Shown here piece after piece: positions 54,332-54,469 of a stretch of DNA of 64,000 bases. Position numbers and translations under genes: made by a program. This DNA comes from Corynebacterium sp. p3-SID1056 (lineage in GTDB: Bacteria; Actinomycetota; Actinomycetes; Mycobacteriales; Mycobacteriaceae), in contig NZ_JALXXL010000004.1 in the NCBI RefSeq assembly GCF_025152525.1, forward strand, positions 62,001 through 126,000. The letters run 5' to 3'. Below the pieces are notes generated by a model. It had not been told where the DNA came from and searched no databases. It worked only from the letters and a program-made list of their open reading frames with translations. The first letter of the stretch is position 1; each line of letters opens with the position of its first letter.

Positions 54332-54337
54332 TAAGGT
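54332..54337 (+). promoter_or_regulatory. -10 hexamer TAAGGT of the ilvBNC operon
   Basis: Ends 7 bases before the leader peptide ATG at 54345. The same bases AAGGTGAG could instead act as a ribosome binding site if transcription starts further upstream. Confidence 0.45.
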
Positions 54338-54344
54338 GAGCCAC

Positions 54345-54395
54345 ATGATCAATCGGCGACTAGTAGTACGAATTCCCACGCGGCGCTTGCCGTAG
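54345..54395 (+). CDS. ilvBNC leader peptide
   Basis: A 16-codon reading frame (MINRRLVVRIPTRRLP) ending in TAG, too short for routine gene calling. Codons 6-8 are Leu-Val-Val and codon 10 is Ile, the three end products of the pathway. It closely resembles the leader peptide I remember for C. glutamicum ilvBNC, including the RLVV and RRLP segments. Stalling at 54360-54374 would leave the antiterminator arm (54382-54389) free; translation to the stop would cover it. Confidence 0.85.
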   Translation: MINRRLVVRIPTRRLP

Positions 54396-54431
54396 CGGGT
54401 TCGTTTTTCTACGCCGCTGACAACAAGCGCC
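54382..54431 (+). promoter_or_regulatory. Antiterminator pairing of the ilv attenuator
   Basis: GGCGCTTG (54382-54389, inside the leader peptide codons) is the exact complement of CAAGCGCC (54424-54431), which is the outer part of the terminator 5' arm. The two structures cannot form together. Confidence 0.65.
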
Positions 54432-54469
54432 CTCGACAGCACTCGTGCTGGTTCGGGGGCTTTTGTTTT
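54425..54469 (+). terminator. Attenuator terminator of the ilvBNC operon
   Basis: GCCCTCGA (54429-54436) pairs with TCGGGGGC-type bases at 54453-54460, and CAGCAC (54437-54442) with GTGCTG (54445-54450), followed by TTTTGTTTT at 54461-54469. It lies 30 bases past the leader peptide stop and 46 before the ilvB start. Confidence 0.8.

Follow-up and report, generated by a model that had tools for sequence, protein, structure and literature searches.

In the ilv and trp attenuators of E. coli, a stalled ribosome selects either the antiterminator or the terminator. The ilvBNC operon of C. glutamicum is the experimentally studied case in the genus considered here: the account of the work of Morbach et al. 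in PMC11857589 reports that its transcription begins 1 nt upstream of the leader ATG, that replacing three Val codons with Ala abolishes valine-dependent expression, and that a change of the leader ATG lowers expression by 80%. A model with three hairpins (H1, H2 and H3), together with terminator mutants, is described in the same article. PMC10272879 describes the ilvB-II motif, with 103 Corynebacterium representatives and attenuation through an upstream ORF (uORF). In its description, a uORF of 10–24 codons lies over P1, P2 is the terminator, and the antiterminator arises from the P1 loop. The main text of that article does not use the words leaderless, Shine or transcription start. In C. diphtheriae, RNA-seq placed the transcription start of the ilvB leader at the start of the leader, which is thus leaderless according to PMC5784534, and in C. 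glutamicum 33% of mRNAs are leaderless according to PMC3890552, which also cites RNA-seq work that detected the ilvB leader. Leaders and terminators of actinobacterial ilvB genes are described in PMC1262725, which reports that codon changes in the S. coelicolor ilvB leader left regulation unchanged; the S. lividans ilvL leader is given as leaderless in PMC8079986.

The ilvBNC leader in the window and in the genus

We analyzed a window of 64,000 nucleotides (the whole stretch of DNA considered here) from Corynebacterium sp. p3-SID1056. Its plus strand carries ilvB for the acetolactate synthase large subunit (54515..56401; NCBIfam NF005860, 1057.7 bits against a cut-off of 881), ilvN for the small subunit (56402..56923; NF008864, 203.7 bits, cut-off 119) and ilvC for ketol-acid reductoisomerase (57010..58038; NF004017, 546.2 bits, cut-off 336), where the ilvC coordinates are those of the ORF from its first GTG and the real start may lie slightly inside. 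The closest IlvB, the best of the 80 loci kept, was 95% identical and came from Corynebacterium sp. HMSC074A01. Between 54332 and 54515, the order is a -10 hexamer, seven bases, a 16-codon ORF, an inverted repeat with a T-run, the Shine-Dalgarno sequence AAGGAG (54500..54505, 9 nt before the GTG at 54515) and ilvB. This element is almost certainly the Corynebacterium ilvBNC transcription attenuator (the ilvB-II motif) with a leaderless leader peptide. On the minus strand nearby are ilvD, for dihydroxy-acid dehydratase (49168-51006), and a gene for an MscS-like channel protein (52782-54275), divergent from the ilvB leader, whose MscS match was below the model cut-off. Elsewhere in the window, the atpB RNA family of Rfam (RF02916) gave a strong match at 5427-5551 (112.5 bits), the only one in the window to reach its gathering threshold.

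The element lies 5' of ilvB and has an in-frame BCAA-rich uORF, a U-run terminator and a covarying 8-bp antiterminator, and we found no difference in kind from the ilvB-II motif as the main text of PMC10272879 describes it. Compared with the published description of the C. glutamicum attenuator (leader MTIIRLVVVTARRLP), the operon is the same, the peptide core RLVV...RRLP is shared, and the leader start lies 0-1 nt from the transcription start, which in the window is predicted. Common to both are also a GGC of the arm in the last leader codons that pairs with a GCC at the terminator base and, as predicted for the window, a competing upstream hairpin. The window leader has 16 codons and the C. 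glutamicum leader 15, and the distance from the Leu6 codon to the arm is 22 nt versus 19. The C. diphtheriae leader given in PMC5784534, MNIIRLVVITTRRLP, follows the same peptide pattern and is one codon shorter. A BCAA-rich leader with a terminator and an antiterminator, as in the window, is also described for M. tuberculosis ilvB1NC ('LVVI' leader, PMC13236596) and for Streptomyces ilvL (PMC8079986), each with a different peptide. These published descriptions already cover the mechanism, its presence throughout the genus and, for two species, the leaderless start, and the element is ordinary for the genus. It differs from the E. coli ilv and trp attenuators in that its leader is predicted to have no usable Shine-Dalgarno sequence or 5' UTR and in that the leader ORF itself contains the antiterminator arm.

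The leader ORF, MINRRLVVRIPTRRLP (54345..54395, plus strand, with the stop codon TAG at 54393-54395), contains two Leu, two Val and two Ile codons among its 16 and is thus a short uORF of the ilvB-II type. An earlier reading of the locus, made from the sequence only, had listed Leu-Val-Val and Ile codons, and all of them are present. The geometry and the C. glutamicum Val mutants point to Leu6, Val7 and Val8 (CTA GTA GTA, 54360..54368) as probably the sensor codons, and similar codons occur at the same place in relatives. We took the ribosome to cover about 26 nt centered on the stalled codon, a figure given for M. tuberculosis ilvB1 in PMC13236596. With this footprint, a stall at Val8 leaves the antiterminator arm at 54382 free and termination at 54393-54395 covers all of it; a stall at Ile10 would put part of the arm under the ribosome, so this codon is probably a poor sensor. 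A scan of both strands of the 64 kb for TAnnnT, a BCAA-rich short ORF (at least five Ile, Leu or Val among ORF residues 2-13) and a T-run returned this one place, and scanning one strand of each of 20 shuffled windows yielded three matches in total; this is weak evidence because the cut-off of five equals the value in the window leader.

An IlvB match was present in 199 of the 201 Corynebacterium genomes searched. We compiled 95 upstream regions (29 loci, 60 fetched regions, five named loci and the window) after the removal of five duplicate loci. After curation, a BCAA-rich leader ORF was kept in 91 of the 95, and no recognizable leader was found in the stretch examined of the other four (L156, L172, L173 and L174). 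For the count of promoter spacing, leaders were picked by peptide and downstream T-run with the promoter ignored, since our first picker had given a bonus for a nearby -10 element and its spacing was not used as evidence. This picker selected 87 leaders and gave no candidate in eight regions (L172-L174, L115, L119, L158, L163 and L168), of which L115, L119, L158, L163 and L168 had a leader by the first picker without a T-run under the rule used. The alignment, from start codon to T-run, held 84 leaders (83 distinct) after the four regions without a leader ORF and seven T-run failures (L115, L119, L158, L160, L163, L165 and L168) were dropped. The aligned peptides had 10 to 23 residues, mostly 15-17, and 59 of the 84 ended in RRLP.

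Promoter spacing and the 5' end of the leader message

The -10 hexamer TAAGGT lies at 54332..54337 on the plus strand, directly preceded by TGTG (54328-54331), and the sequence-only reading was right that seven bases (54338-54344) separate it from the leader ATG at 54345. From this spacing and the published start sites of congeners, transcription is predicted to start at the A of that ATG (54345, plus strand) or within 2 nt of it. A TAnnnT hexamer was present 5-8 nt upstream of the start codon in 83 of the 87 peptide-selected leaders; elsewhere in these regions, the same held for 48 of 2693 NTG codons taken as controls. The spacing among these 83 was 7 nt in 52, 8 nt in 22 and 6 nt in 7, with two possible hexamers in 2; a distance of 6-8 nt thus held for nearly all genus leaders examined. 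The start codon was ATG in 75 of the 87 leaders and GTG in 12. Four picked leaders had no -10 element at 5-8 nt (L006, L147, L156 and L160): L147 and L160 were wrong ORF picks, with an alternative leader that has a -10 element at 7 nt, and the L006 pick was an internal ATG whose upstream ATG is preceded by TATAGT at 7 nt.

Shine-Dalgarno-like 4-mers were rarer upstream of leaders than upstream of control codons (5/87 versus 558/2693). The window is among the five, and three of them (L001, L132 and the window) overlap the -10 hexamer; one (L147) is a wrong ORF. In the window, no such 4-mer was found before the leader other than the AAGG that forms part of the -10 hexamer, at its 7-nt spacing. 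In L136, an AAGGAG stretch lies between the -10 element and the ATG, which makes this a possible leadered or intermediate case.

It is unlikely that the message is not leaderless, with an upstream start and either a conventional 5' UTR or an in-frame upstream TTG, attenuation being otherwise the same. Such a TTG is present and lengthens the ORF (MCKVSHMINRRLVV...), and a generic promoter scan gave no sigma-70-type promoter match at the leader; the -10 spacing in relatives led us to reject the TTG as the leader start. The enrichment of TAnnnT at leader starts also argues against this alternative, as do the overlap of the only Shine-Dalgarno-like 4-mer with the -10 hexamer, where ilvB has AAGGAG at 9 nt, and the leaderless or 1-nt 5' ends measured in C. 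glutamicum and C. diphtheriae as the publications cited above describe them. The leaderless message that had been suggested from the sequence is thus supported by the transcription starts of these two congeners; since such starts are documented in the genus, one here would be no surprise. By analogy with them, binding of a ribosome to the bare 5' end would be needed in the present strain.

Beyond Corynebacterium, 75 actinomycete loci (L005 and L007-L080) were considered, of which 6 had too little upstream sequence. Of the remaining 69 ilvB upstream regions, 32 had a short BCAA-rich ORF whose start is preceded by TAnnnT at a distance of 5-8 nt, compared with 0/69 reverse complements and none in five shuffle sets. 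The matches were mostly from Mycobacterium, Nocardia, Rhodococcus, Gordonia, Lentzea and relatives, and the short ORFs of the Nocardia and Rhodococcus matches start with GTG. These leaders agree with the RNA-seq result for Streptomyces reported in PMC8079986, and a leader may still be present in the regions without a match.

Terminator, antiterminator and competing hairpin

A T-run terminator at 54425-54469 had been proposed for this locus; the terminator was borne out, with a stem that is slightly longer and begins at 54422. The intrinsic terminator (54422..54469, plus strand) has a stem from 54422 to 54467, composed of 54422-54427/54462-54467, 54429-54436/54453-54460 and 54437-54441/54446-54450, and the T-run TTTTGTTTT at 54461-54469. 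Alone it folded at -25.1 kcal/mol (z = -5.14), a value equaled by 0/200 shuffles. In relatives, 611 of 664 cells of the terminator core were paired (92.0%), which 0/500 shuffles reached, compared with 45-58% in slid registers; the register slid by -1 had 15 double-change cells versus 16 but was 58.4% paired. In this and the following comparisons, the shuffles ignore relatedness and their figures are not probabilities, and the tested structure, being taken from the window, is favored over slid registers. The A/U foot of the terminator had no clear support in relatives (45/500 shuffles reached its value, and the register slid by -1 was higher). A generic terminator scan did not list the terminator at this locus, likely due to its rules (a loop of 3-8 and a T-run directly after the stem); one of the four matches of the generic scan was a weak hairpin within the leader region, at 54385-54400.

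The antiterminator consists of a 5' arm in the last leader codons (54382..54389, plus strand; GGCGCTTG/GGCGCUUG) and a 3' arm that overlaps the terminator 5' arm (54424..54431, plus strand; CAAGCGCC). As the sequence-only reading had it, these are perfect reverse complements of 8 bp, and the antiterminator destroys the terminator 5' arm: both folds use 54424-54431 and are mutually exclusive. The stem by itself is only moderately unusual, because 42 of 5000 dinucleotide shuffles also gave a perfect 8-bp stem between the leader ORF and the terminator 5' arm. The antiterminator region (54380-54435) folded at -25.2 kcal/mol (z = -2.62), with 2/200 shuffles as good.

Covariation in relatives is stronger evidence for the antiterminator than the 8-bp stem itself, as judged from the aligned sequences. 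Among the 83 distinct rows, 621 of 660 cells of the arms were paired and 13 were double-change cells, each value being reached by 0/500 shuffles, compared with 28-63% paired and 3-9 double-change cells in slid registers. Compensated pairs of arms were GGCGUUUG/CAAACGCC in L132, L167 and L170 and GGCACUUG/CAAGUGCC in L157, which at the sequence level are direct evidence for the predicted pairing. An inner helix of the antiterminator (54393-54398/54414-54419, plus strand) was paired in 317 of 489 cells, with 34 double-change cells versus a shuffle mean of 13.7. The 8-bp complementarity that shuffles also produce, and the codon changes without effect described for S. coelicolor in PMC1262725, would fit a constitutive terminator with only a chance short ORF and without sensing of amino acids in the present strain. 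That reading is scarcely credible given the covariation of the arms and the genus-wide conservation of peptide, spacing and arm.

The 5' arm was read in one frame in 75 of the 84 aligned leaders and in another frame in 9. In the other-frame leaders (e.g., L090 ...AGAALAVAV and L110 ...PGACRSGLLA) the arm stays GGCGCUUG, GGCGCCUG or GGCGCUUC, and it is therefore conserved as an RNA element and not as a peptide element. In L125 and L154, the leader stop codon precedes the arm. The close leaders L110, L111 and L112 show a frame change near the ORF end (RRLP versus PGACRSGLLA) with the antiterminator arm unchanged. L004, L133, L149 and L158 form a diverged Corynebacterium subgroup with leaders ending in RR or RW; the first three have GGCGGUGA or GGUGGUGA as arms, which form 6-7 of the 8 pairs, and L158 is outside the alignment.

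The window arm carries U at 54387 and forms a stem free of mismatches. In L141, which has the same peptide as C. glutamicum, GGCGCCTG (36-43) faces CAAGCGCC (71-78) with C41 opposite A73 (numbering of PMC11857589), a C-A mismatch at the A73G site described in that article. At the pair of 54387, the 83 rows had U-A in 52 and C-A in 22.

The earlier description of the attenuator as complete held for the elements it named and overlooked a competing apical hairpin, GCGGC/GCCGU (54380-54384 with 54389-54393; 54380..54393, plus strand). This hairpin is likely the counterpart of the apex of the published H1 anti-antiterminator. It was paired in 392 of 415 cells in relatives, mostly with unchanged pairs (3 double-change cells versus 2, 3, 7 and 5 in four slid registers). 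Of the long H1 of the window fold (54353-54420) we retained only this hairpin, since the outer helices fail controls: 54354-54358/54412-54416 was paired in 47.8% of cells in relatives and better when slid by +1 (55.3%), 54368-54372/54400-54404 was no better than shuffles (495/500 reached it), and the H1 helix 54375-54377/54397-54399 was equaled in relatives by the register slid by -1. The whole leader RNA (131 nt from the ATG) folded at -57.1 kcal/mol into the terminator and the competing hairpin (z = -4.39, 0/200 shuffles). When the antiterminator was imposed on the full leader RNA, the fold came to -44.5 kcal/mol versus -57.1, a cost of 12.6, so that termination would be the default without a ribosome.

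A conserved RNA structure would also suit a ligand-binding riboswitch, e.g., for ppGpp, in place of ribosome-mediated attenuation. According to PMC10272879, ppGpp riboswitches control ilvB in some Firmicutes, and a Val-to-Glu change in the leader of a C. ulcerans reporter left regulation unaltered in B. subtilis; the C. ulcerans RNA, studied there by reporter and in-line probing, showed no ppGpp response. A search with Rfam 15 gave no family, riboswitches included, that reaches its gathering score at the ilvB leader, and we rejected the riboswitch reading on this result and the published ppGpp tests. The retention of the leader ORF across the curated regions and the effects of the C. glutamicum Val and start-codon mutants described in PMC11857589 also stand against it, and we consider it most improbable.

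Predicted course of attenuation and its meaning

Under the attenuation model, RNA polymerase would start at, or about 2 nt from, A 54345, and a ribosome would load at the AUG of the bare 5' end and translate the leader, as in C. glutamicum. When Leu- or Val-tRNA is scarce, the ribosome would stall at Leu6-Val7-Val8 and leave 54382-54389 free to pair with 54424-54431; the antiterminator would then remove the terminator foot, and transcription would continue into ilvBNC. With an ample supply, the ribosome would reach UAG 54393 and cover 54382-54389, so that the terminator would form. If the leader is not translated, the apical hairpin 54380-54393 would also occupy the 5' arm, and the default would therefore be OFF. 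The placement of the arm in the last leader codons, such that ribosome position decides the outcome, is supported by the congener experiments summarized in PMC11857589; transcript start, stalling and termination are predicted by the same model for the present strain.

This locus confirms that an experimentally established kind of attenuator can be recovered by reading raw sequence. As a naturally occurring variant, it departs from the C. glutamicum system in an antiterminator free of mismatches and in a spacing that is one codon longer, and its perfect stem is predicted to give somewhat higher basal read-through. The genus-wide data on spacing and frame amount to a small, testable statement on leaderless initiation in attenuation. 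We propose tentatively, and with less than even confidence, that leaderless initiation is a selected part of the attenuator and not just tolerated, and that the antiterminator arm is also selected as RNA whatever its reading frame. The proposal draws on the narrow range of -10 spacing, on the lower frequency of Shine-Dalgarno-like 4-mers at leaders than at control codons, and on the similar leaders upstream of ilvB in other actinomycetes. If this is true, the leading ribosome would be timed relative to the polymerase by its loading on the bare 5' end as soon as this end is clear of the enzyme.
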